Shown one piece after another: positions 3,594 to 38,754 of a stretch of DNA of 43,203 bases (positions are counted from its first letter, which is position 1; each line of letters opens with the position of its first letter). Origin of the DNA: a virus; IMG/VR virus record IMGVR_UViG_3300032220_002271, positions 1 through 43,203 of that record, one strand, 5' to 3'. Under the pieces are notes generated by a model, which was not told the origin of the DNA, did not search any database, and saw only the letters and a list, made by a program, of their open reading frames with translations. Position numbers and translations under genes: made by a program.

Positions 3594-5479
3594 TGAAAGC
3601 GGTCAACGGTCAGGGTTTGGGTGAATTCAGGCATGTTTTCATCCAGGGATAGGTGGCGCACCAGGCCGCGCCAGGTCTCGCCAGGCTCCTGCACTTCAAT
3701 CAGGTAGCCAGGCAGGATCAAGCCCGGGGCCGTGCCGCCCGTGATCAGGGGCACGCTGACCTCCTGCCGCCAGCGCAATGCAGAGTCGGCCAGCGGCACG
3801 ATGCCGCGCTGGCGCACGGCGATCACATCGGTCATCAGCGGATCTGTGATCTGGGCGGCCAGCAGATCGCCAGCGGTACCGGCGCGCACAATCTGGCCTA
3901 CCACACCACCCGCAGCGGAGCCCGACACGTAGACGGCGTTGCGCAGCTCCTGCTCCAGATCCGTCAGAGTGTCCTGCACGATGATCTGCCCAGGCATGAC
4001 GACATCCGGCACCACGCCGGCCCAATTCCAGGGCAGCGCTTTGTACTCGGGCACCAGCTGCAGCACCGGGTCGGTGCGATGGCTGCGAACCACGGCACCG
4101 GCTGCCTCGGCAATGCGCTTGATGACCGACAGCGGCGTGCCCGTGTGCGACCAGGCAGCAGCCGGCACTTGCCAGTCTTCAGCACCCCAATCCAGCGTAA
4201 TGCCTGTGTTCTGCAGCGCCTCGCTGGCAATCTGCTGCACCGACATCTGACTGCTGATGCTCCAGGCCTTGGCGCGCCAGTAGCGTTCCCCGATCAAGGA
4301 CGTCACGCTCTGGCCCGATACAGACGCCTCCCAGCCGTCAAAGCTGCGCGATCGCACCGGCTGCTTGACCGCGAACACCCAATCGATACCGTTGATGGTG
4401 AGCCGGATCTGCTGGGGCACCCCACCCTGCGGAGCCAGAAGCCCCACCAGGTCGACCGGACCAGAGGCAGACAGCGTCCAGCCGAATCCATCGTCACCGC
4501 TCTCGATACGCACACCCGTCAGCGGCACCGGCGCACCAGAGGGCAGCAGCACTGCATTGGATTGATAGACAAGCATGTAAACCTTCAACAAGGGAATGAC
4601 AAACTGCGAACCTGGCTCAGGCGTGGACTGGCAGCAGTAAAAAACAAGGTCTGCCGAAGCAGACCAGGACTTGCAGAACACCAGCTTGATCGGCCCACCG
4701 ACCAGCTGCTCATAACAACCGGGCTTTTCCGGCTCGGGCGGTTTAACCTGCGACTTGCCAGCGGGCGGCTTCATGGCCTGCTGATAGCGGCCCTCAAAGC
4801 CCCTGTAGAGCGGCAGCGATGGGCCTGCACCTGTAATGAAGAGGTGCTGCAGACCCATCGCATCCTGTGCCGTTGCATCGACCATGCGGCGACGGTCGCG
4901 CAGGGCTTCCTGAAACCGCACGGCCCAGCCAGCCCGCACGGGCGCGGCATCCTGGGCTGTGGCCTGCAGCCCCACGCGCACGCTCTGGGCCTCCTGCCAG
5001 CGGGCCTGTGTTGTTGCTCCAGGTAGAGGCCGGGCCTGCTGAAACCTGCCCTGCATTGCCACCCCTTGTCGCTGACCGTCCTGCCAGGAAATGCCGAACT
5101 GCTCTTGCAAGGGCATTGCGTCTTGCGCGGTCGAGACCCAGCCAGCAGGCAGCGCATCCGTGTCTTCCCATCCCGTGACCCAACCTTGCCCCACAGGCTG
5201 CGCCTGCTGGGCACTGGCGGCCACCTCGGCCACCACAGGCCGAGGCGTATCGGTGTTGTAGCGCACGACCGCGCTGCAGCGCAGACCGGGCATGCGGCCA
5301 GCGGCAACCAGATCCTTGCGCACATGCACCAGGGATCTGACCCGCAGACCCGGCATGCGCGCTGCAACGACCAGCGTTGCATCGGGCACCTGCCCGCCGC
5401 CGCCGTCATCGCCAAACACCAGCTCGACCGGGTTGCCGGTCTTGAAGGCGCGGTTAAAGATCAGGTCGATGCCGGCCAT
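3590..5479 (-). CDS. tail hub / baseplate protein with N-terminal repeat region
   Basis: 629-residue structural protein. The C-terminal half (from about residue 300) looks like a phage tail hub: beta-rich stretches (RLTINGIDWVFAVKQPV), an inserted helical part (SVQQIASEALQNTGITLDW) and a DLEQELRN segment, resembling late-control D or gp27-like hubs. Residues about 88-240 hold roughly ten degenerate repeats of an aromatic-or-Ala, Gln, acidic-or-Gln, Ala unit (TAQDAMPL, RFQQARPL, RWQEAQSV, RFQEALRD, RYQQAMKP), separated by about 10-20 residues. The start overlaps the upstream stop by one base. The hub call rests on position (distal tail module) and general fold pattern, not a diagnostic motif. 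Confidence 0.6.
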   Translation of the reverse strand: MAGIDLIFNRAFKTGNPVELVFGDDGGGGQVPDATLVVAARMPGLRVRSLVHVRKDLVAAGRMPGLRCSAVVRYNTDTPRPVVAEVAASAQQAQPVGQGWVTGWEDTDALPAGWVSTAQDAMPLQEQFGISWQDGQRQGVAMQGRFQQARPLPGATTQARWQEAQSVRVGLQATAQDAAPVRAGWAVRFQEALRDRRRMVDATAQDAMGLQHLFITGAGPSLPLYRGFEGRYQQAMKPPAGKSQVKPPEPEKPGCYEQLVGGPIKLVFCKSWSASADLVFYCCQSTPEPGSQFVIPLLKVYMLVYQSNAVLLPSGAPVPLTGVRIESGDDGFGWTLSASGPVDLVGLLAPQGGVPQQIRLTINGIDWVFAVKQPVRSRSFDGWEASVSGQSVTSLIGERYWRAKAWSISSQMSVQQIASEALQNTGITLDWGAEDWQVPAAAWSHTGTPLSVIKRIAEAAGAVVRSHRTDPVLQLVPEYKALPWNWAGVVPDVVMPGQIIVQDTLTDLEQELRNAVYVSGSAAGGVVGQIVRAGTAGDLLAAQITDPLMTDVIAVRQRGIVPLADSALRWRQEVSVPLITGGTAPGLILPGYLIEVQEPGETWRGLVRHLSLDENMPEFTQTLTVDRFQ

Positions 5480-24475: not shown

Positions 24476-24976
24476 TGGAGCTGACAATTTAGCGCTTGAC
24501 ATCTCTGCAGCCTTTTGCAAATTGACGGCCAGGACGTTTTTTGCAGCTGCATGGACGCGCTTGCGAAAGTCCCCCAGCACCAGGTAGAAGTGGCTGCGGC
24601 TGATGTTGAGTGCCGCCGCTGCAGTCTTGACCGGCGCGACGCGATGCACGTAATACAGGTCGAATACACGCTTGTCCAGGGCGTCGGGCTGACTGGAATA
24701 CGCGATGTGAAACGCTGCCAGCTCCGCACTGCAGAACGCGTCCGGGCCGTCAGATTTGAGCGCCCTGGTCCGAGATCCGCTGAGCTGGCCGAGGATGGAG
24801 CCCATATTCGACGGCGGCGCGTAAAACCGGCGTGTGGACTTCCAGGCGACCCAGCGCTCGCACAGGTTGTCGAGATCCTGCTGCTCTTGGCTCGCTTCTG
24901 GATCTGGGTCATGGTTCTGCGGTGCGGTGGCTGCCAGGCGCAGAGCATCAGGGTCATGAAGGTTGTTATCGGTCAC
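24461..24976 (-). CDS. HTH regulator, sigma-70 region-4-like (Q/RinA-type)
   Basis: 171-residue protein. Residues about 98-150 look like a region-4-type helix-turn-helix (LDKRVFDLYYVHRVAPVKTA, then ALNISRSHFYLVLGDFRKRV). The YYV..........L.ISR..FY pattern is seen in late-gene regulators and antiterminators of the Q and RinA type. The N-terminal 50 residues are acidic and probably disordered. It starts on the last base of the terminase gene and is followed by 13-bp repeats and a strong terminator, so it could control its own downstream operon. The alternative is a terminase-linked DNA-binding protein. Confidence 0.6.
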   Translation of the reverse strand: MTDNNLHDPDALRLAATAPQNHDPDPEASQEQQDLDNLCERWVAWKSTRRFYAPPSNMGSILGQLSGSRTRALKSDGPDAFCSAELAAFHIAYSSQPDALDKRVFDLYYVHRVAPVKTAAAALNISRSHFYLVLGDFRKRVHAAAKNVLAVNLQKAAEMSSAKLSAPDKTL

Positions 24977-27162
24977 TAGCGTATCCCTCTCGAAAGTATG
25001 CGACGCCCCACTGGAGGCCTATTGATGGCGGCTGCCACTGGTGCCGGGGCCAGTGGCGCAGGGGCTGGAGCAACCGGGGCAGGAGCTGCAGGCTCTTGTG
25101 CCGGGGGTTGCGGCGGCGGGGGTACAGACGCCTGTACGGTCTGCGCCGTAGGTTCAGGCTCTGTCGCGGGTATAGGTTCGGGCTCTACAGGCACGGCTGG
25201 CGCAATGTCGGCCATGGGAGCGGGATCTGGTGCAGGGGCCAGCACAGGGACGGAAACGGGCGCAGGCTGAGGAGCAACAGCAAACAGATCAAGATTGGCC
25301 GGGATCAGCCTGTCACGCAGGCGCTTCCAGTCCAGCGCAGACCACTTGTGCAGGCCGAGCTGGTGCGCCAAAGCCAAGTTGTAGACGGACACGTCCCAGG
25401 CCTCATTACGCGCGCCGTTCGGCTTGACCCACTCGCGCACCGGGCGGCCCTTTCGCCATTTCGTATGGGGCTGCTCCACGACCATCATGTCGAACCACTC
25501 AGGCGGCAAATCTTCGTGGAAGTGCATTGCACCGCCGCCCTCAGTGAGCAGCATGCGATTGCTGAGCCAGTCCTTGGCGACGTCAGTGCCGACCGTCCAC
25601 AGTTCCACGCCTCCCTTGACTTTCTCACCGCCCCAATCAATGTCCACCTTGCTAGGCGCGCTGCCCATGATGGGGCGATTGGGACGACTGGAGCCGTGAA
25701 GCACCACGCAGTTGAGCGCCCTGCGCGCCTGGCCGTAGTTGTAGACGTCCTGGGTGTTGGCACCGCCCGAGTCAATGCCGTAGGCACTCAACATGATGGG
25801 CCTGCCGCTGGCATGAAGCAGCGGAGTGCGGCGGATCGTGTCCAGCCGTTGCCAGACGCTGCCTGGGACATCAGCGCTTTCCGTGGGCGAGCCATTGAGC
25901 ACGATGTAATCGATCACCCAGTGCTCCAAACCAGGCCCCCAGGCCTCGATTTGAACTTCCAGGCGATTGGGCTGCGTATCCACCGCCATGGTCGCCACCA
26001 GTGCAGCATCGGGCAGCACGCGCAGGGGGTAGTCTTCGGCGCGACGGCGCAACTGCTCGGCTGTGGTGGTCGATTCGCTATTCTTGTAGCTGAGGCCTAG
26101 ACGCGTGTTGTAGAACACCTGCATGGCTTCGTGATCACCACGCTTCACCCGGTCGCGCGCCCGGGCCAGCTGACGGGCCAGAGCCAGCCAGGTAATGGCA
26201 CCAATCGGCATGTAGAAGGCCGACAGTGTGAAGCTGACAGTTTCTCCATCGCCCTTGGCAGTCGCCACCCAGCGCGCCTGGCCTCCTGCAGCTTCATCCG
26301 GAAGCATGGTGACCTTGTGGCGTTCATCTATATCCGCACCACATTCTGGGCAAACAAACCAGGCTCGATCCATGAAGCCGGTTTCTTCATCCCGCGCATA
26401 TTTGAAGTTCTCCAGCTCCAGGGAGTGCAGATGCCCGCAGTCATCATGCGGGCACGGAACAAAGTACTTTTCCTTGGTGCCCATTTCATAGAGGGTGTCG
26501 ATCTTGGAAAAGCCTTCAATGCCGGGGCTGGAGGTGTACAGGAACTTGCAATCGTTGGCGTATTGCGTGGCGCGGGCCTCGGCCAGCTCGACCGGATCGC
26601 CCTCCCCGTCGACATCGAGATCCAGACGGTCGATTTCGTCTATGTAGATGTAGGGCGCGGAGACTTCTGCCAAGTTGGCCGCAGAGCCTGCGGTATTCAT
26701 GTACAGCGTCGCATCACCCAGAAAGTCCTTGGCCTGGGTGGTGTTGCGAGAATCGCGGCTCTTGGCTGCTGCAACACGTTCGCGCAGCTCCGGCACGCTG
26801 CGGATCATCGTGGAAACGCGCGCTGAAAAGCGCTTGACCAGGGTGTCTGTCGGCTCAAGCGCGAGGATATTGCGCGGCCTACGGTGCATCAGCGAGCCAA
26901 TCCAATTCAAGGCCGTCTGAGTCTTGAACATCTGCGAGGCGACCTTAGCCACCACGCGCTTTGCAGGATGGGAGGGCGACAGCACCTGGTGCACACGCCT
27001 GGCGGGATAGCTGCGATCAAACCGGAATGGACCAGGCTGCGGGCCGCTCTTCGGCAAGACCATGTACTGCTCTGCCCACTCATCGCAACGCAGCTCAGGG
27101 TCAGGCCTTGAAGCCTCGATTGCGGCCTCCAGCATGAGCGTGTAACCGTCCGCAAGATTCAT
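24976..27162 (-). CDS. terminase large subunit (lambda gpA family)
   Basis: 728-residue packaging ATPase and cos nuclease. A gpA-type core is visible: WAEQYMVLPKSGPQPGPFRF near the N-terminus, a degenerate Walker A in KVASQMFKTQTALN (about residue 93), Walker B YIYIDEIDR (about residue 176), a Cys cluster (CPHDDCGH and CPECGAD) and nuclease-region residues near VATMAVDTQPNRLEVQIEAW. Compared with the roughly 640 residues of lambda gpA, it has an extra Pro/Ala/Glu-rich tail of about 90 residues. The tail contains an inverted copy of the 16-bp repeat (25122-25137). The start overlaps the small subunit stop. Confidence 0.92.
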   Translation of the reverse strand: MNLADGYTLMLEAAIEASRPDPELRCDEWAEQYMVLPKSGPQPGPFRFDRSYPARRVHQVLSPSHPAKRVVAKVASQMFKTQTALNWIGSLMHRRPRNILALEPTDTLVKRFSARVSTMIRSVPELRERVAAAKSRDSRNTTQAKDFLGDATLYMNTAGSAANLAEVSAPYIYIDEIDRLDLDVDGEGDPVELAEARATQYANDCKFLYTSSPGIEGFSKIDTLYEMGTKEKYFVPCPHDDCGHLHSLELENFKYARDEETGFMDRAWFVCPECGADIDERHKVTMLPDEAAGGQARWVATAKGDGETVSFTLSAFYMPIGAITWLALARQLARARDRVKRGDHEAMQVFYNTRLGLSYKNSESTTTAEQLRRRAEDYPLRVLPDAALVATMAVDTQPNRLEVQIEAWGPGLEHWVIDYIVLNGSPTESADVPGSVWQRLDTIRRTPLLHASGRPIMLSAYGIDSGGANTQDVYNYGQARRALNCVVLHGSSRPNRPIMGSAPSKVDIDWGGEKVKGGVELWTVGTDVAKDWLSNRMLLTEGGGAMHFHEDLPPEWFDMMVVEQPHTKWRKGRPVREWVKPNGARNEAWDVSVYNLALAHQLGLHKWSALDWKRLRDRLIPANLDLFAVAPQPAPVSVPVLAPAPDPAPMADIAPAVPVEPEPIPATEPEPTAQTVQASVPPPPQPPAQEPAAPAPVAPAPAPLAPAPVAAAINRPPVGRRILSRGIR
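25122..25137. repeat. 16-bp repeat GTACAGACGCCTGTAC, copy 2
   Basis: Second exact copy, within the Pro/Ala-rich 3' part of the terminase gene. Because that gene is on the minus strand, this copy is inverted relative to its host gene and is read as VQASV. Confidence 0.75.
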
Positions 27163-27734
27163 TTTGCCTCCGGGGTGATGGGCAGCAATGCCTGCAGCCG
27201 CTTTTCTGCGATCTCGAAGGCCTTGCGCAGCTCTTCGCGGAATACGTGCTCGATCTCACGGGTGTCAGCCAGGCCGATGACGCGCGGAGCGGCGCGCTGG
27301 GGCGCATTCATGACGTCATCACGCAAAGCACGAAAGGCGTCGAAGGTGCCGCGACGGGCGGCGCTTTTGTCCACCAGCAGGCCGGCATCCTTGGCGTTTT
27401 CACGCTCCTCGCGCTCCACCGCCGCCATTTCACGGCGCACGCGCAGGGCCTGGTAGTCATCCTTGGCGGTAGAAGCCGAATCCGGGGCCTGTGGCGCGTT
27501 ATTTGCGGCCTGGGGTGCATCGCCCATGCCTTCCACCTGTTCGCTCGCTGGGCGGCCCGCATCGGCCCGAGCGCGGGTGTTCTGAGCCCATTGGATATCG
27601 GCCACTGCCGGGTCGATCTTTCCATCGATCAGGGTGATGCGGCCTTCTTTCACTGCCTTCGCTACTGCGGACTTGGCGACGCCACGGCGGCGGGCGTATT
27701 CCGCCTGCGAGATGAGATTGATTCGACCGTTCAC
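27159..27734 (-). CDS. terminase small subunit (Nu1-like)
   Basis: 191-residue DNA-recognition subunit of the packaging terminase. The N-terminal winged-HTH-type segment (ISQAEYARRRGVAKSAVAKA) fits Nu1-like proteins. The middle is Ala/Gln-rich and the C-terminus (VFREELRKAFEIAEKRLQAL) would contact the large subunit. The start is a GTG at 27734 that overlaps the stop of a 59-codon upstream ORF (GTGA), which suggests coupled translation. The end overlaps the large subunit by four bases. Confidence 0.85.
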   Translation of the reverse strand: MNGRINLISQAEYARRRGVAKSAVAKAVKEGRITLIDGKIDPAVADIQWAQNTRARADAGRPASEQVEGMGDAPQAANNAPQAPDSASTAKDDYQALRVRREMAAVEREERENAKDAGLLVDKSAARRGTFDAFRALRDDVMNAPQRAAPRVIGLADTREIEHVFREELRKAFEIAEKRLQALLPITPEAK

Positions 27735-27910
27735 TTTGCCTCCCTGCGTTCACCACTTCGTTCACTTTTCCCCAGACCGTCGACTAGCGTCCGCGCGGGG
27801 GCCGAATTACCCTCATGAATCCATGCGGCAGGAGTACCTACAAGGGGGGTAGACAACGCCGCTACCACGGAGCCGGCTGTCATGGCCGTCGCGATCTGGG
27901 TCAGTTCCAT
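27731..27910 (-). CDS. unlisted 59-aa ORF coupled to terminase
   Basis: Reading the minus strand from the ATG at 27910 gives 59 codons, beginning MELTQIATAMTAGSVVAALS and ending in ERREAK. Its TGA stop overlaps the GTG start of the small terminase by four bases (GTGA), as in other coupled pairs in this phage. An AAGGAAAGAGAG ribosome site precedes the ATG. The first half is weakly hydrophobic and the rest is charged. No family recognised. It is the first gene of the late operon next to the origin-like array. Confidence 0.55.
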   Translation of the reverse strand: MELTQIATAMTAGSVVAALSTPLVGTPAAWIHEGNSAPARTLVDGLGKSERSGERREAK

Positions 27911-27916
27911 CTCTCT

Positions 27917-27945
27917 TTCCTTTTCTTTTTTAATAAATAAACAAA
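27917..27945. other. AT-rich stretch next to the iteron array
   Basis: A pyrimidine tract followed by TTTTTTAATAAATAAACAAA stands out against the GC-rich surroundings. It lies immediately left of the GTTAC iterons, so it could be a DNA unwinding element. The minus-strand sequence could also serve as part of the late promoter and ribosome site for the 59-codon ORF. Confidence 0.5.
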
Positions 27946-28173
27946 GTGGTTACAGCGTTACGGGCGCGCGTAACCACACAACCCGCACCACGCCTAGCTT
28001 GTTACGACGTTACGACGTTACGCATGTATCGCTCCCGCACACGCACCCATGTGTGTGCGCATCTGCGCACGCCTGCACATACCTACGCGCAGTGGTCGTA
28101 ACGGCGTAACCTCGTAACAAACCGCGCCAGTGCTGGGTTTGCGTGTTACGGCCTGCTGTAACGCTGTAACCAT
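27946..28173. other. putative replication origin: dyad array of GTTAC iterons
   Basis: Twelve GTTAC/GTAAC pentamers. Forward copies start at 27949, 27957, 28001, 28009, 28017 and 28145; reverse copies (GTAAC) start at 27970, 28098, 28106, 28114, 28158 and 28166. Within clusters they repeat every 8 bp. All six pairs mirror exactly around 28059.5, so arms 27947-28022 and 28097-28172 form an imperfect inverted repeat. The 74-bp centre contains alternating purine-pyrimidine CACACG/GTGTGTGCGC sequence. It is non-coding, lies beside an AT-rich stretch and follows the helicase gene. P4-type primase-helicases bind comparable iterons at ori/crr; the origin role here is inferred. Confidence 0.75.
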
Positions 28174-28189
28174 TCATCGAGTCCATGCC

Positions 28190-29857
28190 TTATTCATTCC
28201 CCTCTGCTGCAGCAGAATCAGGGGCCGGGGAGCCAGCTCCATAGCCCAGGTACTTGCGCAGCTCGCCCTCGAACGACTCCACGGCCTTGGTGGCCCACGC
28301 GCCCTCGGTCATCTTGCTTTGGCCCTCACCTAAGACAGGCTCAGCCACCAACAGCATGCGATGGGACTTTCTTGCCGCCCCCGGCTGCGCCACGTTCATG
28401 ACCTTGATCCGCGCTGGTGAGTTCATCGTGTCTGAGAAACGCGTGAGAGTGCTTGAGAACTTCGTTTCGTTATCTGGAAACCGCTCCCCTGTGCGTTGGC
28501 ACCATTTGATGTAAGCCCGATAGGCCTGAGAGCGCGAGCATGAGCGATACGGCAGATCCAGCTCGCCATCAGACCATTCAGCCCAGAATCGCTCAGGACT
28601 CTTGCGATTGAGGCCGATCAGGTTGCCCTTGGCCTCGGTCATGGGCGGCTTGGTGTAAGGGCTGAATCCATCCAAGGGATATGTCAGCAGGTACTCATAG
28701 AAGGCCTCAACCCCGCCGTTGTCACGCCACTCGCCCAGGTCGATGTAGTACTGATCCTCTTTGGCCTTGGGCGTGTACACGACCAGGTAGCGCCGGTCCG
28801 TGTTGTCGAGGGCCAAAGGCTGCGTTTCATTCGAGAGAAACACGATATTCATGTGGTTCTTCTCTTCGCGCCGGATCTGGTGCTTGGAGTTGATCTGCAC
28901 CGTGGGCGAGGTGATCAAGGCCTTGAGCCGGTTCTTGTTGTGCACCAGCTCGGACCGGCTCATGATTTCGTCGCCCACCACAAACTGCTTGCAGCTGCGC
29001 CAGTCATTGAACTTGTCCTCAAGCTCATCCTGACCAACGATGCTGGCGTATTTGCCGTAGATCTGCACCACGGTCTCAAACAGAAAGTTCTTTCCCGCAC
29101 CTTCATCGCCATGCATCACCACGGACGATCGCATCTTGGCCCCAGGGTGCTGCAGTGGGTATGCCAGCCAGCGGATAAGCCACTCCATCACCAGGCCGGT
29201 CTCGGTCTCATCAGACGTGGCCCGACTTACCAAGAACTTGATCAAGTCGAGCATGGGCTGGACGTTGCCCTTCTTCGGCACCATCGCCATGCCCTCATAC
29301 ATGTTGATGACGCGATCGGTGTCGCACTTCATCGTCGGATCGAACACCAGCTCGTCGGCGCGTATCGTGCGGCGCTTCTCGCTGGCCTTCCACATCGCCA
29401 CCAACTGGCTGCCGTGGGCGTGCCCCATGTTGCTGATCTTCATGATCATGCGCTCGGAGTCATCCCAGACCGTGTCTGTGCCATAGAGCAGAGCGAAGTT
29501 TTCAACCAGATGGTTGAACTTGCCCCAGTCGATGGTTTTCTCCTTCTTACGGCCCTGTACGGGCTTCTCAGCGGTATCGCCGGCACCCTCCTCGCTCCCC
29601 CCATCCCCTTTGGTGCGCGCAGTAGCGCGCTTCTTCGGGGGGGCGGGGGGCGGGGGTGCGCCGGCCTCTGCCGGCACTCGCACCCCTGCTTGAAAGTCAA
29701 CGCGCACAACTGAGCCTGCTGCAGATTCGCCCGCAGCAGGAGACCCATCCAGCGACGCATTCGCGTCGGGGGCAGGCAACGCCTGCGACTCTTCGGTCGC
29801 AGGCGGCGGTGGCGCAAGCGCTCCGCCATCATTCAACTCTGTATCGTTATCGGCCAT
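28190..29857 (-). CDS. SF3 replicative helicase (DUF5906-like primase-helicase)
   Basis: 555-residue replication protein. The N-terminal 100 residues are Pro/Ala-rich and probably disordered. The helicase part has Walker A GDEGAGKN (about residue 250), Walker B FVVGDE (about residue 292), a sensor-type IVFLSN (motif C) and an Arg-finger region DNTDRRY. It would unwind DNA as a hexamer at the phage origin. The iteron array lies 17 bases past its stop codon. The start overlaps the end of the Toprim gene by 11 bases. A shortened, motif-less relative is encoded at 34810-35448. Confidence 0.88.
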   Translation of the reverse strand: MADNDTELNDGGALAPPPPATEESQALPAPDANASLDGSPAAGESAAGSVVRVDFQAGVRVPAEAGAPPPPAPPKKRATARTKGDGGSEEGAGDTAEKPVQGRKKEKTIDWGKFNHLVENFALLYGTDTVWDDSERMIMKISNMGHAHGSQLVAMWKASEKRRTIRADELVFDPTMKCDTDRVINMYEGMAMVPKKGNVQPMLDLIKFLVSRATSDETETGLVMEWLIRWLAYPLQHPGAKMRSSVVMHGDEGAGKNFLFETVVQIYGKYASIVGQDELEDKFNDWRSCKQFVVGDEIMSRSELVHNKNRLKALITSPTVQINSKHQIRREEKNHMNIVFLSNETQPLALDNTDRRYLVVYTPKAKEDQYYIDLGEWRDNGGVEAFYEYLLTYPLDGFSPYTKPPMTEAKGNLIGLNRKSPERFWAEWSDGELDLPYRSCSRSQAYRAYIKWCQRTGERFPDNETKFSSTLTRFSDTMNSPARIKVMNVAQPGAARKSHRMLLVAEPVLGEGQSKMTEGAWATKAVESFEGELRKYLGYGAGSPAPDSAAAEGNE

Positions 29858-30917
29858 GGTGCTTGGTTATTTCCTGAATCACGCCCATCAGCTGGTCGCT
29901 CACCGCGCCCAGCCCCTCCAGGACATGCAGGTCGTTAAAGTCCGTGTCCTTGGGACCACGGTTCGTGGGAAAAATGGGCCAGACGAAGTCGCAGCGCTCC
30001 GTCTTGCGGGCCACGGCCTTTGCAGCCGTGCGACCGGGGTTATTCAGCTGGCCGGTGCGCTTGTCGCGCGTGAGGTAGTCGTCATCGGCCAGGATCAGCA
30101 TGCGCACATCGGGATACAGCTCGCGCAGCAGCGGCACCACATGGGCCAGGTTGCCGGCGTCCATAGCCACGAAAACGGGCCAGGCGTAGGCTGTGGCGCG
30201 GCGGGCCGTGCCGCCCGTGGCATAGCCCTCCACCACTAGCATGAGCGCCGTGTCGGCCTCGATCTCACCCAGGCGAATGCAGCAGCCTGGCTTGTCAAAC
30301 TGGCGCAGGTAAATCTTGGAGCCGTCGGGCTTGATGAACTGCACGCCGCGCATCGCCTCGGCGCGCGGCATGTCATAGCGCATCAGCGGCAGCACCAGCG
30401 TGCCGGCAGGCAGCGTCCAGACCGTGTCATCCTCGCCCCTGCGCTTGGCGGGCCAGCGCAGCGTCAGGCTCTGATCGAGCATGCGGCAGGTCTCTCCGAT
30501 GACCTGCTTGCGCTCCAGGTAGGGCGTGGTCTGCGTGGGTACGGCCTTGCGCCAGATCGTCAGGGCGTCTGCACTGGCGTTCGCAATCTCCTTGGCGCGC
30601 TCGATGGCGGCTGCAGCCTTCTTGGCTTCGCGTTCCGCCTTCATGCGGGCGCGCTCCTCCTCGCCCAGCTCGGCCCAATCCACAATCACGTTGCGCCAAT
30701 CACCGCCAGCGCGGTATGTGCCAAACGTACCCGTAACCCACTTCTTGGTGGAATCCTTGGGCTGGAACAGATATAGCTTGTACCAGTCCTTGCCACCCTT
30801 GCCGCATGTCACGCGCTTGCCGCAGTCGATCTTGTAGGGCAGTTGGGCGAGATCCTTATCGCGCAGCTCGATGCCGAACAGCTCCATCTGACTAAGCACG
30901 TCCTGGTAGTTCTCCAT
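29847..30917 (-). CDS. Toprim-domain primase
   Basis: 356-residue protein starting MENYQDVLSQMELFGIELRD; I chose the ATG at 30917, which shares a base with the preceding stop (TGATG). The N-terminal part contains CGKRVTCGKGGKDWYKLYLF, resembling the zinc/primase N-region, then a Lys/Ala-rich helix. The C-terminal half has Toprim signatures: LMLVVEGYATGG (catalytic Glu) and MLILADDDYL (Asp pair). It would make RNA primers together with the downstream SF3 helicase; in many phages these two activities are joined in one protein. No separate zinc-finger protein is visible. Confidence 0.85.
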   Translation of the reverse strand: MENYQDVLSQMELFGIELRDKDLAQLPYKIDCGKRVTCGKGGKDWYKLYLFQPKDSTKKWVTGTFGTYRAGGDWRNVIVDWAELGEEERARMKAEREAKKAAAAIERAKEIANASADALTIWRKAVPTQTTPYLERKQVIGETCRMLDQSLTLRWPAKRRGEDDTVWTLPAGTLVLPLMRYDMPRAEAMRGVQFIKPDGSKIYLRQFDKPGCCIRLGEIEADTALMLVVEGYATGGTARRATAYAWPVFVAMDAGNLAHVVPLLRELYPDVRMLILADDDYLTRDKRTGQLNNPGRTAAKAVARKTERCDFVWPIFPTNRGPKDTDFNDLHVLEGLGAVSDQLMGVIQEITKHHGR

Positions 30918-31315
30918 CAGACCACCCCACCCTGCTGGCCGGCCTGCTGCAAGCGCTGGGCCTGCTCCATCAGATCCTGCAGCTTGGGCACCAACAGGCT
31001 GATCTGCGCCGTCAGCACCGCCGCCTCGGACACCGGCGCGATCGGCACGGGTGCCTGGTAGCCGGCCTGGCGCATCCACCAGGTTGCAAAGCCATGAAAG
31101 CCAGCCTCACGCGACATACGCATCAGCATCAACACCTGCGAGGGCGTCAGGCGCTCAGCGCGGGCCGGGTTCAGGGCATCCATCAGGTAGCGCGCAGCAG
31201 CGTCGACAGACTTGTCGGGGAACATCTGTGGCCCCACCTTTTTAGGCCCACCCGCATGGCGCACCGCCTCCCGCGCTGCGTCTAGTTCGTCTTCGTAATC
31301 CAGGCCGATTTCCAT
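30917..31315 (-). CDS. CII-like regulatory / replication accessory protein
   Basis: 132-residue protein, first gene of the leftward replication operon. The segment AAREAVRHAGGPKKVGPQMF and the next 40 residues (ARYLMDALNPARAERLTPSQ, VLMLMRMSREAGFHGFATWW) fit the HTH-like pattern of the phage CII (CP76) family. The C-terminus is a Gln/Leu-rich helix. It may regulate transcription or load replication proteins. AGGAGGG precedes the ATG at 31315; the stop is coupled to the primase start. TTCCGA repeats lie 30-60 bases upstream. Confidence 0.6.
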   Translation of the reverse strand: MEIGLDYEDELDAAREAVRHAGGPKKVGPQMFPDKSVDAAARYLMDALNPARAERLTPSQVLMLMRMSREAGFHGFATWWMRQAGYQAPVPIAPVSEAAVLTAQISLLVPKLQDLMEQAQRLQQAGQQGGVV

Positions 31316-34809: not shown

Positions 34810-35448
34810 ATGACTACAACCACTCACACCCCTCATGAAAGCGCCGTCATGGGGCTGATCCGTCAGTTAGCCAACAACGATGAAGCCAAGGTGCAGCAGC
34901 TACTGGCATGGATGGCTGCCCCACTCCAAAAACCCGGCCACAAATTGCAGCAAGGCCTGCTGCTTGCAGAGCGCCAGTTAGGCGGCAACTGGCTGCTGGC
35001 GGCAATTCTTTCGGAGATCTACAGCGACAGCGGCCTGTGGATGTATGCAGAGAACATGAGCGCCAAATTCACATTTTTGCGCCCCGAAACCCGCTTGCTT
35101 TGCGTCAGTCACGCCGGGTTCGACCTGTTTCGCGGCAGCCGATCCAATCCGCCCACAGCTGAAAAGCTCAAAACCCTGATCACCAGCCAATCGGTTCAAC
35201 TGAACCCCAGGCACCAAGAGCCCCAAACCATCCCAAACCACCTGAATGTCGTGTTTCTCACAGGTGCCGCAAACCCCTTTAACGAGTCCGACCGCCGCTG
35301 GTTCGTCATCGAGCCCAAGCACGACCTGCAGCTCAGCCAGCAAGACGATTACCTGCTGAGCTACTCCAACCGCCTGGAGCGCACCCTGGCTCTGAAAAAC
35401 CTGCTCATGCGCCACAGCATCAACAGCAACGCTCTGGAGGCCGTATGA
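34810..35448 (+). CDS. ATPase-dead relative of the phage SF3 helicase
   Basis: 212-residue protein that aligns with the core of the helicase at 28190-29857. Matching segments, in order: LLAWMAAPLQKPGHKL (helicase IRWLAYPLQHPGAKM), LKTLITSQSVQLNPRHQ (LKALITSPTVQINSKHQ), NHLNVVFLTG (NHMNIVFLSN) and NESDRRWFVIEPKHD (DNTDRRYLVVYTPKA). The Walker A position holds ERQLGGNW instead of GDEGAGKN, and the Walker B position holds LLCVSHAG instead of FVVGDE, so ATP hydrolysis is not expected. The N- and C-terminal helicase extensions are missing. It may dampen or regulate the active hexamer, or have a new role. GAGG precedes the start. Confidence 0.78.
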   Translation: MTTTTHTPHESAVMGLIRQLANNDEAKVQQLLAWMAAPLQKPGHKLQQGLLLAERQLGGNWLLAAILSEIYSDSGLWMYAENMSAKFTFLRPETRLLCVSHAGFDLFRGSRSNPPTAEKLKTLITSQSVQLNPRHQEPQTIPNHLNVVFLTGAANPFNESDRRWFVIEPKHDLQLSQQDDYLLSYSNRLERTLALKNLLMRHSINSNALEAV

Positions 35449-36365: not shown

Positions 36366-36583
36366 CCACCGCCTGCAAGAACTGCAGCCAATGGCAACCG
36401 GACAGCAGCGCTGCACGCATGGTGCAGCACGGCTTTGCCAACTGCAGCCGCCAGCGCCTGGCCTGGCGCTATGTCAGCGCCGACAGCAGCTGCAGCCGCT
36501 TTGATGCCCTGCCCGCCGACCAGGTCGAGGCCCGCCGCAAAGCCGCAACGGAAGCCGTGCGCGCACTCAAGGAGAAAAAGTAA
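36362..36583 (+). CDS. small Cys-containing early protein
   Basis: 73-residue protein starting MTTACKNCSQWQPDSSAARM. Cys residues at about 5, 8, 28 and 44 (CKNC, NCSRQR, SSCSRF) could bind a zinc ion, followed by a basic helix ending KEKK. A second protein of similar size and Cys-rich design lies at 41091-41303 and also ends in a Lys/Glu-rich tail. It overlaps the previous gene by four bases and the ParB-like gene by one base. Zinc binding is inferred. Confidence 0.62.
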   Translation: MTTACKNCSQWQPDSSAARMVQHGFANCSRQRLAWRYVSADSSCSRFDALPADQVEARRKAATEAVRALKEKK

Positions 36584-38754
36584 TGGCTACCAAAGACCCC
36601 CTGCTCGACCGCCTGGTCACCATCAACGACGACGCCACCACCAGCAAGGGCAGGCCACATCCCCAGGCCGGCCTGCAAGCCAAGGTGATCGGCAAGACCC
36701 CCAACGGTCGCCAGTACCAGCTCGACTGCGAAGGCACGCTGATCAATCTGCCTATGGCCGATTTCAGCCTGGTCAAAGCCGACAGCGCTGAGCCGCTGGC
36801 TGAGTCCGATGCCACGTCCGAGCAGCCATGCGCCGAGCTGCACAAGTTCGTCCCCAGCCGCACCAACCGAACAGTCGCGGAAGACGACGAGCTGCACGCG
36901 CTGGCCGCGACCATCAAGGCCTACGGGATACTGCAGCCCATCATCGTGCGCAAGCTGCCGGCAGAGCGCCTGCAGGACACCTTCGAGAATCCTGCAACCC
37001 GCAAGGCAGCTTTCGAGATCATCGCCGGCGAGCGCCGCTTTGTGGCCGCTCGCGTTGCCGGCCTGCGCTCGGTGCCATATCTGCTGGTAGAGGCCGACAA
37101 TCAGTTGGCCCTGCAGATGCAGCTGATTGAAAATCTGCACCGCCAAAACCTCAACCCCATCGAGGAGGCCCGACAGCTGCAGATGCTGATCGAGGACTTC
37201 CAGCTCACCCGTGACGACGCCGCAGACGCAGTCCGCAAGAGCCGCACCCATGTCTATGAGACTCTGCGCCTGCTGTCGCTACCCCACACAGCGATGCAAG
37301 CCCTCAAGGATGGCCGGCTGCCGCGCAGCCACGCGCTGCTGGTGCTGCAGCGCCCCACGGTCGCCATGCAGGAGGAGTTTGCCGAGCGCGTCCTAACTGG
37401 TGGCCCCGACGGCGGCACCATGAGCTTTCGCAGCGCCCAGGATCTGGCTCGCCGCAACTACATGACAGAGCTGGACAAGGCTCCGTTTGACCTGGCGGAT
37501 GCCCTGCTCTGCCCCAAGGCCGGCGCATGCACCAAATGCCCCAAGCGCACCGGCGCAACGCCAGACTTGTGGGACAAGCAAGTCCCCGACTCCTGCACAG
37601 ACACTGCCTGCTTTGCAGACAAGAAAGAAGCCCAGCTCGCCCGCGTGAAAGCCGAGGCCGTCCAGGCTGGCCGCCAGATCATCAGCGGCAAGGCTGCGCG
37701 CGACATCATGCCGACCGAGACCGGCACCCTGCGCGGCTATATCGCCCTGGACAAGGCCAGCCAGGGCAGCAAGGCCGAAACGCGCCAGGTGCTCGGCCAG
37801 GACGTGCCCGCCAGCCGCGTCGTGCTGATCGAGACCCCCAGCGGCGGCTTTACCGAGGCCGTGCCCGTGCATGCCGCAAGCGCAGTAGTGCAGGCCCAGT
37901 CAGCTACCGCCAAACCAGAGAAGACAGCCAAGAAAGACAAGGCCCCGCCAGCAGTTGAACCATCACGGGCCGAGCTGGAGGCCGAGTACTCCCGCCGCTG
38001 GCGCGAGGAAGCGGTCGCCTCCACGATCGACGGCCTGTACTGCTGCAAACCCGACTCACTGAGTTACATCCCCAGCCACGCAGCGCTGCACATCCTCAAG
38101 AAACTGGCTGCAGGCGTTTCGCGGGAGTGCCTGTTGATGATCTTTCACATCCCCCCGAATTCCACCCGGGCCGATGACGAACTTCAAGAAGCTATCGAGA
38201 GCGCCGCAGAGCAAGATTTGCCAGAACTGATCAGCTACATGCTGCAGCTGGCCTGCACGGCAGACCTTAAGGAAGATCCTGCACGCCCGGGCGATGCCCC
38301 GATCATCGAGGAGCTGCGCGACCTGTCCAACTGCGACCTGGAGACCATCCAGACCGAGGTGCAGGATGAAATGAAGGCCGAAGCCGCAAAGCGTGCGGGC
38401 AAGCCGGCCAGCAAACCCACCGGCAGCAAGGGCACGACCAAGGTCAAACAGCAGGAGGCCAGCGCAGCCATTGCCAAGGCTATGCAGGCAGCGGATGCGG
38501 CGATCGCAGCGACTGAATTTGAACCAGGCCAGACCGTCCGCATCAAGGTCGACCTGCGCGGTCCTGAAAAGGCCTTGCTGCCCACGCGCCAGCGCCTGGC
38601 TGTCATCAAGCAAAAGATGGGCGACCGCGCCTTCATGGTGGAGCTGCCCGCAGATCCCAAGGCAACCCCGACCGACATGGTCGAGCGCTGGGTCATCAGC
38701 GCCGACTACACCGAGCTGCAGGCCGTAGAGCAAGCGGAGGCCCAGCATGCGTAA
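36583..38754 (+). CDS. large ParB-like protein
   Basis: 723-residue protein. Residues about 85-200 form a ParB/Spo0J N-terminal domain with GERRFVAA (about 148-155, the CTP-binding type motif) and LIENLHRQNLNPIEEA. A KorB-type HTH region follows (about 200-265). A Cys cluster near residue 305-345 (CPKAGACTKCPKRTG, CTDTACF) could bind zinc. The C-terminal 350 residues are long helices and a basic Lys/Ala-rich part. No ParA is encoded in the window, so classical partition is unlikely without a host partner. It may act in replication, recombination or transcription. The start overlaps the preceding stop (TAATG). Confidence 0.82.
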   Translation: MATKDPLLDRLVTINDDATTSKGRPHPQAGLQAKVIGKTPNGRQYQLDCEGTLINLPMADFSLVKADSAEPLAESDATSEQPCAELHKFVPSRTNRTVAEDDELHALAATIKAYGILQPIIVRKLPAERLQDTFENPATRKAAFEIIAGERRFVAARVAGLRSVPYLLVEADNQLALQMQLIENLHRQNLNPIEEARQLQMLIEDFQLTRDDAADAVRKSRTHVYETLRLLSLPHTAMQALKDGRLPRSHALLVLQRPTVAMQEEFAERVLTGGPDGGTMSFRSAQDLARRNYMTELDKAPFDLADALLCPKAGACTKCPKRTGATPDLWDKQVPDSCTDTACFADKKEAQLARVKAEAVQAGRQIISGKAARDIMPTETGTLRGYIALDKASQGSKAETRQVLGQDVPASRVVLIETPSGGFTEAVPVHAASAVVQAQSATAKPEKTAKKDKAPPAVEPSRAELEAEYSRRWREEAVASTIDGLYCCKPDSLSYIPSHAALHILKKLAAGVSRECLLMIFHIPPNSTRADDELQEAIESAAEQDLPELISYMLQLACTADLKEDPARPGDAPIIEELRDLSNCDLETIQTEVQDEMKAEAAKRAGKPASKPTGSKGTTKVKQQEASAAIAKAMQAADAAIAATEFEPGQTVRIKVDLRGPEKALLPTRQRLAVIKQKMGDRAFMVELPADPKATPTDMVERWVISADYTELQAVEQAEAQHA

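Follow-up and report, generated by a model that had tools for sequence, protein, structure and literature searches.

Among described systems, the replication origins of SaPI and PICI elements come closest to the locus considered here. SaPI Rep uses its C-terminal domain to bind, apparently as two hexamers, the iteron origin that directly follows its own gene; Cch2 binds iterons of 5 nt, and its C-terminal domain binds the Cch2 iteron region (PMC7581432). The rep-ori of a Gram-negative PICI contains two sets of iterons with an AT-rich centre: it replicates a plasmid in E. coli, and deletion of ori from the rep-ori plasmid reduces replication (PMC6092414). Opposed hexamers of the SF3 helicase T antigen likewise assemble at their origin, where a pair of inward-directed rings is able to melt the DNA duplex that lies between the two (PMC9894130). 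For NrS-1, the structure paper names only two 8-nt sites as a possible origin (PMC7102993).

The locus lies in a viral sequence of 43,203 nucleotides (IMG/VR record IMGVR_UViG_3300032220_002271), the whole of which is referred to below as the window. An integrase, along with genes for portal, head protease and a minor tail protein, marks the window as a tailed temperate phage; it is closest to a prophage of Comamonas suwonensis (the terminase small subunit, terS, is 97% identical). Reading leftward, the gene order is Toprim primase, DUF5906 helicase, iteron array, terS and terminase large subunit, with primase and helicase encoded by separate ORFs (Table 1). The helicase gene ends 17 bases to the right of the stretch 27946-28173, as a first, sequence-only reading had noted.

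Table 1. Coordinates of the array, its parts and the neighboring genes in the window.
Feature	Position	Strand	Basis
12-site GTTAC iteron array, candidate replication origin	27949..28170	.	direct count and mirror test
Left arm: two forward, one reverse, three forward sites at 8-bp phase	27947..28022	+	self-match and positions
Right arm: three reverse sites at 8-bp phase, one forward, two reverse	28097..28172	-	self-match and positions
Central spacer, 74 bp, candidate strand-opening region	28023..28096	.	composition
Longest unbroken alternating purine-pyrimidine run, CATGTGTGTGCGCAT, across the mirror centre	28048..28062	.	run search
Second conserved element, GGCGTGGTGCGGGTT (minus-strand reading), between left-arm iteron clusters	27980..27994	-	conserved in relatives
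Second conserved element, GCACTGGCGCGGTTT (minus-strand reading), between right-arm iteron clusters	28119..28133	-	conserved in relatives
DUF5906 SF3-type helicase, 555 aa, probable initiator	28190..29857	-	Pfam PF19263, AlphaFold2, Foldseek
Toprim primase, upstream of the helicase	29847..31079	-	Pfam Toprim_3, PHROG 2249 DNA primase
Lambda-type terminase small subunit (terS)	27159-27734	leftward	PHROG 57
GpA-type terminase large subunit	24976-27162	leftward	

Direct counting places forward GTTAC sites at 27949, 27957, 28001, 28009, 28017 and 28145, and the reverse form, GTAAC, at 27970, 28098, 28106, 28114, 28158 and 28166 (all starts). The description given by the sequence-only reading – six forward and six reverse sites in mirror arrangement, clusters at 8-bp phase, and arms forming an imperfect inverted repeat – is borne out at each point: 12/12 sites are mirrored about 28059.5, the outer coordinates of every pair sum to 56119, the positions agree with the claimed number and orientation of sites per arm, and self-matching gives arms of 76 bp each (77% match when inverted) on either side of the 74-bp spacer. 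With just 11 further copies of GTTAC/GTAAC in the 43-kb window, approximately 0.06 are expected in 228 bp, and the array is thus not a product of chance. Random placement of the same number of sites reached 12/12 mirrored in 0 of 1000 trials. When positions were fixed and orientations shuffled, full mirroring was reached in 8% of shuffles: the symmetry therefore resides mainly in the positions of the sites. An Rfam search of the window gave no RNA family, and GC skew shows no clear turning point at 28 kb. An AT-rich stretch reported to the left of the array does exist (27918-27948, 19% GC), but it falls outside the array; it is a purine-rich leader directly before an ATG, and recurs in relatives.

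A structural model of the helicase was generated with AlphaFold2 from 62 sequences (the window plus IMG/VR or genome loci; mean pLDDT 81). At the C-terminus the model places helices at residues 420-429, 442-456 and 464-477, followed by a hairpin at 483-489/497-503: this is the order of a winged helix, and the predicted domain spans about residues 420-505. The first Foldseek match of the model is the NrS-1 primase-polymerase CTR (E 3e-19) and the next is the SaPI5 primase-helicase (E 3.5e-11), while by sequence the closest solved structure is the NrS-1 helicase domain (6k9c, E 4e-26). We consider that the DUF5906 helicase probably reads the GTTAC iterons as initiator. The window also encodes a 212-aa DUF5906 helicase-core paralogue (34810-35448, plus strand, opposite to the helicase) that is 28% identical and has neither the Walker A lysine nor the C-terminal winged helix. 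Similar degenerate paralogues are present in L011, L012, L014, L018, L020 and L047 (loci collected in this study carry the prefix L), and that of L048 keeps GSGKS; such a protein, as an inactive subunit, could tune the helicase ring or block it.

Comparison of the region beside DUF5906 helicase genes had been proposed as a check on the array. Searched as DNA against named phages, the array region gave no match, and relatives were obtained by protein-level search: 80 IMG/VR helicase relatives plus named phages were examined, leaving 68 dereplicated loci (the window and 67 relatives). The array and, mostly, its mirror plan are kept. Across the 68 loci the array is found no more than about 330 bp 3' of the helicase stop and has a median of 10 exact sites; it is mirrored at p<0.01 against random placement in 40/68 loci, and fully so in 12/68. 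Neither the symmetry nor the 8-bp phase, both of which had been thought unusual, is unique to the phage of the window. A few relatives have irregular arrays (L007, L126, L152 and L083).

The array is directly 3' of the helicase gene in relatives found via helicase or via terS, and in the helicase-collected relatives the gene before it is helicase; the gene after it may be terS, a tail protein gene or an antitermination gene. This variation bears on the idea that the array is a packaging (cos/pac) site with the terminase small subunit bound at the iterons, an idea suggested by the facts that a lambda-type small subunit (PHROG 57) is the next gene downstream and that lambda cos sits just upstream of the lambda small-subunit gene. 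However, a tail-type gene separates array and terS in L037, L060, L072 and L025, and in Halomonas phage H4907 the array is followed by an antitermination gene: linkage to terS is broken in all of these, and cos was rejected as an explanation. Where the terminase is elsewhere, the array remains beside the helicase gene; it is therefore not cos, and a packaging role is very improbable. Moreover, a separate candidate cos block is present at about 27729-27845, with a similar block upstream of terS in L010, where there is no array. This candidate (27729-27845), marked by GTAGGTACTCC...GGGTAATTCGGCCCCCGC and, as read on the minus strand, by GGTACTCC...GGGTAATTCGGCCCCC, is conserved in terS-linked relatives; GTGAAC then occurs three times (27729, 27748 and 27760), a pattern reminiscent of lambda cosB.

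The position of the array between replication and packaging genes also brings to mind a transcription control region between the two operons, bound by a regulator or – as autoregulation – by the helicase, whose binding could affect transcription too. Against this, relatives differ in the gene that comes after the array but keep the array beside the helicase gene, and the mirror plan together with a conserved property of the spacer (see below) fits helicase loading better than promoter control; we regard control of transcription as a very improbable function of the array.

The iteron motif varies between phages, but is largely uniform within each array. Most relatives have GTAAC. The iteron is GCAAC in L106, L112, L118 and L145 (twelve copies in both L112 and L118), GTGAC in L025 (twelve copies) and L113, and GTAAA in L037 (twelve copies); among named phages it is TGTGCGGG in Stenotrophomonas phage S1, TCAGACA in H4907 and TGTTGGGT in Pseudomonas phages pAN and LPPA56 (the arrays of these last two were read directly from sequence, as the motif finder skips their iterons as low complexity). 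Mixed motifs are found in L099, L105 and L131. Such joint change, at 10 to 12 dispersed sites, would be expected under selection by one DNA-binding protein. A second conserved element (consensus GGYGCGGKTT) is present as one copy per arm; its two copies have the same orientation in 22 loci (close relatives) and are inverted in a more distant clade. Since this element is kept where the iterons change (L025), another factor may read it.

When 479 helicase columns are ranked by mutual information with iteron base 2, residue 486 – in the wing hairpin – comes first, with a value attained by 2 of 300 label permutations, which ignore sequence kinship; a z-score version of the test is weaker, chance giving larger maxima. 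Residue 486 is mostly V, P, A or N with GTAAC and T, Q or A with GCAAC, and in 6/6 helicases with GCAAC (C-type) it is changed relative to the nearest GTAAC (T-type) relative. That residue 486 tracks iteron base 2 is suggestive, though not proof, and points to the winged helix as reader of the iterons.

The same association argues against a partition centromere. A 723-aa protein with ParB_N and HTH_ParB domains is encoded in the window (36583-38754, plus strand), and, iteron arrays being known to form some centromeres, it could be imagined to bind the array; an array in an unrelated match, L061, even adjoins an actin-like gene. Yet it is to the helicase gene that the array is linked, and iteron type goes with a residue of the helicase. 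In addition, an integrase is encoded by the phage, and a Pfam scan of ten of its larger proteins gave no ParA match. A centromere therefore seems a most improbable identity for the array. For the L061 array itself (5245-5354, ATTACC-type, mirrored, beside an ALP/MreB-like gene), a role in partition may apply instead of one in replication initiation.

An exact pattern scan of IMG/VR returned 54 stretches. Some lie beside other primase/helicase families: DUF927 with a Cch HTH (L027), PHROG 1139 (L044), PHROG 35358 (L070), PrimPol-PriCT2-DUF5906 (L071) and a primase with a DnaG-type zinc finger (L058). Others are in head-gene modules of AT-rich phages, often with two arrays each. The records behind L034, L046, L055, L057 and L076 (G001-G005) are AT-rich phages with two GTTAC mirror arrays set 0.46-0.54 of the contig apart, roughly half a genome; the second array of G004 is weaker on one side. 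The paired arrays are possibly two origins. In G001 and G003 one array has a PHROG 8841 primase/helicase at a distance of ~6 kb; the helicase of these phages belongs to another family, and some 6 kb or more separates its gene from both arrays: adjacency is thus no rule for all such arrays.

How does the locus compare with the known systems? Resemblance to SaPI and PICI origins is found in the position of the iterons, which directly adjoin the 3' end of the helicase gene (in the window as in the 67 dereplicated relatives), and in the two iteron sets that flank a centre (here six plus six sites and the 74-bp spacer). The modelled fold matches the SaPI5 primase-helicase, and its predicted winged helix and the association of residue 486 with the iterons would agree with a hexameric SF3/AAA+ initiator that binds iterons through a C-terminal domain. 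The centre, AT-rich in those elements, is here GC-rich (62%) and alternating; here, too, the two sets of six sites form an exact mirror, and primase and helicase are separate genes. PICIs are satellites that rely on virion genes of a helper phage, whereas the present element, a tailed phage, itself encodes terminase (with the large subunit), portal, head maturation protease and a minor tail protein. Because the centre is not AT-rich, we class the array as working like a SaPI/PICI origin, and not as a member of that group.

The sequence-only reading had invoked phage P4. The analogy is fair insofar as the iterons of P4 are short and recognized by the helicase and crr also lies directly 3' of the gene for the initiator, alpha, but SaPI and PICI origins are closer: crr is a 120-bp direct repeat with 4/10 sites mirrored (2/6 in ori), alpha is one fused primase-helicase protein in place of separate ORFs, and the second iteron region of P4, ori, is kilobases away, while the window has a single GTTAC cluster. 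P4 nevertheless prompts the question of whether the array is a helper element, such as crr or an incompatibility or copy-control site, with the true origin elsewhere, given that crr, at the corresponding place, carries the same iterons as ori. Against this stand the presence of one GTTAC array only in the window, the direct-repeat plan of crr, which is not a mirror, and the fact that SaPI/PICI arrays at the same position are functional origins (PMC6092414); a mere helper role is highly improbable. NrS-1 provides the closest helicase by sequence and fold, a ring-shaped SF3 enzyme, but there helicase is fused to primase-polymerase. The SV40 origin has short inverted sites. SV40 T antigen and papillomavirus E1 work alike, as opposed SF3 hexamers at an origin, with no close kinship to the helicase of the window; their DNA-binding domain is N-terminal (PMC7581432), that of the window helicase C-terminal (predicted).

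The spacer has a GC content equal to that of the window and is not AT-rich. Its distinguishing feature is alternation of purines and pyrimidines, which holds for 0.79 of steps as against 0.52 in the window background. In the family the longest alternating run of the array has a median of 22 bp (8 in background windows), and in 67/68 loci the longest run in the array region is within the top 10% of windows. Among 48 mirrored arrays of the helicase family, the run lies within 42 bp of the mirror centre in all 48 and exceeds composition-preserving shuffles at p<0.01 in 46, while mean spacer GC is 60% against 63%; lower-GC members (L129, L143, L148 and L149) have AT-rich spacers. In the arrays of other phages spacers are AT-rich (mean 26% vs 44% GC) and an unusually long run (p<0.05) is found in 12/25: given these weaker runs, alternation is a mark of this helicase family and not of all such arrays. 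Possibly, although we lean slightly against it, the conserved alternating (TG/CA/CG) tract between six-site arms that load opposed hexamers replaces the AT-rich melting element; such a tract would be prone to Z-DNA or another supercoil-driven transition.

That the array is an origin bound by the neighboring helicase, as the sequence-only reading had proposed, is the best-supported reading: the array tracks the helicase gene throughout a diverse family, iterons switch in concert, and predicted fold and layout match SaPI/PICI initiators, for which the iteron regions downstream have been tested as origins. We think it very probable that the array is the phage replication origin at which the adjacent helicase loads as two opposed rings. 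We infer that the helicase binds the array and that the array has origin activity, and likewise that a double hexamer is loaded and the duplex opened at the spacer; the most economical model would be a self-loading initiator helicase. According to this model the helicase would bind GTTAC sites via its C-terminal winged helix, one hexameric ring would form on the six sites of either arm, and through the mirror layout the two rings would come to stand face to face across the spacer, which – with its long alternating tract – would open. From there the pair of helicases would drive forks in both directions, with priming by the neighboring Toprim primase and extension by host polymerase.

Our search of openly licensed literature gave no account of such origins for these phages, and the genome paper for H4907 contains neither "origin of replication" nor "iteron". 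The earlier claim of a new origin holds for this phage family but not for the kind, the layout being known from satellites and, in part, from P4; what is novel is the phage-wide family, the grouping of the sites into two sets of six, and a spacer that is GC-rich and has a long alternating run in place of AT-richness. A large family of tailed phages, mostly of Burkholderiales as judged by bacterial matches, thus joins the satellites as carriers of this type of helicase-loading origin. The family also provides natural sets of helicases with matching iterons, which make it directly testable how the winged helix reads DNA and whether two opposed rings are needed. Were the alternating tract to act as suggested, a GC-rich origin would open by helical transition or helicase shearing and not by easy AT melting, and in GC-rich genomes the alternating spacer would offer another solution than the AT-rich unwinding element.
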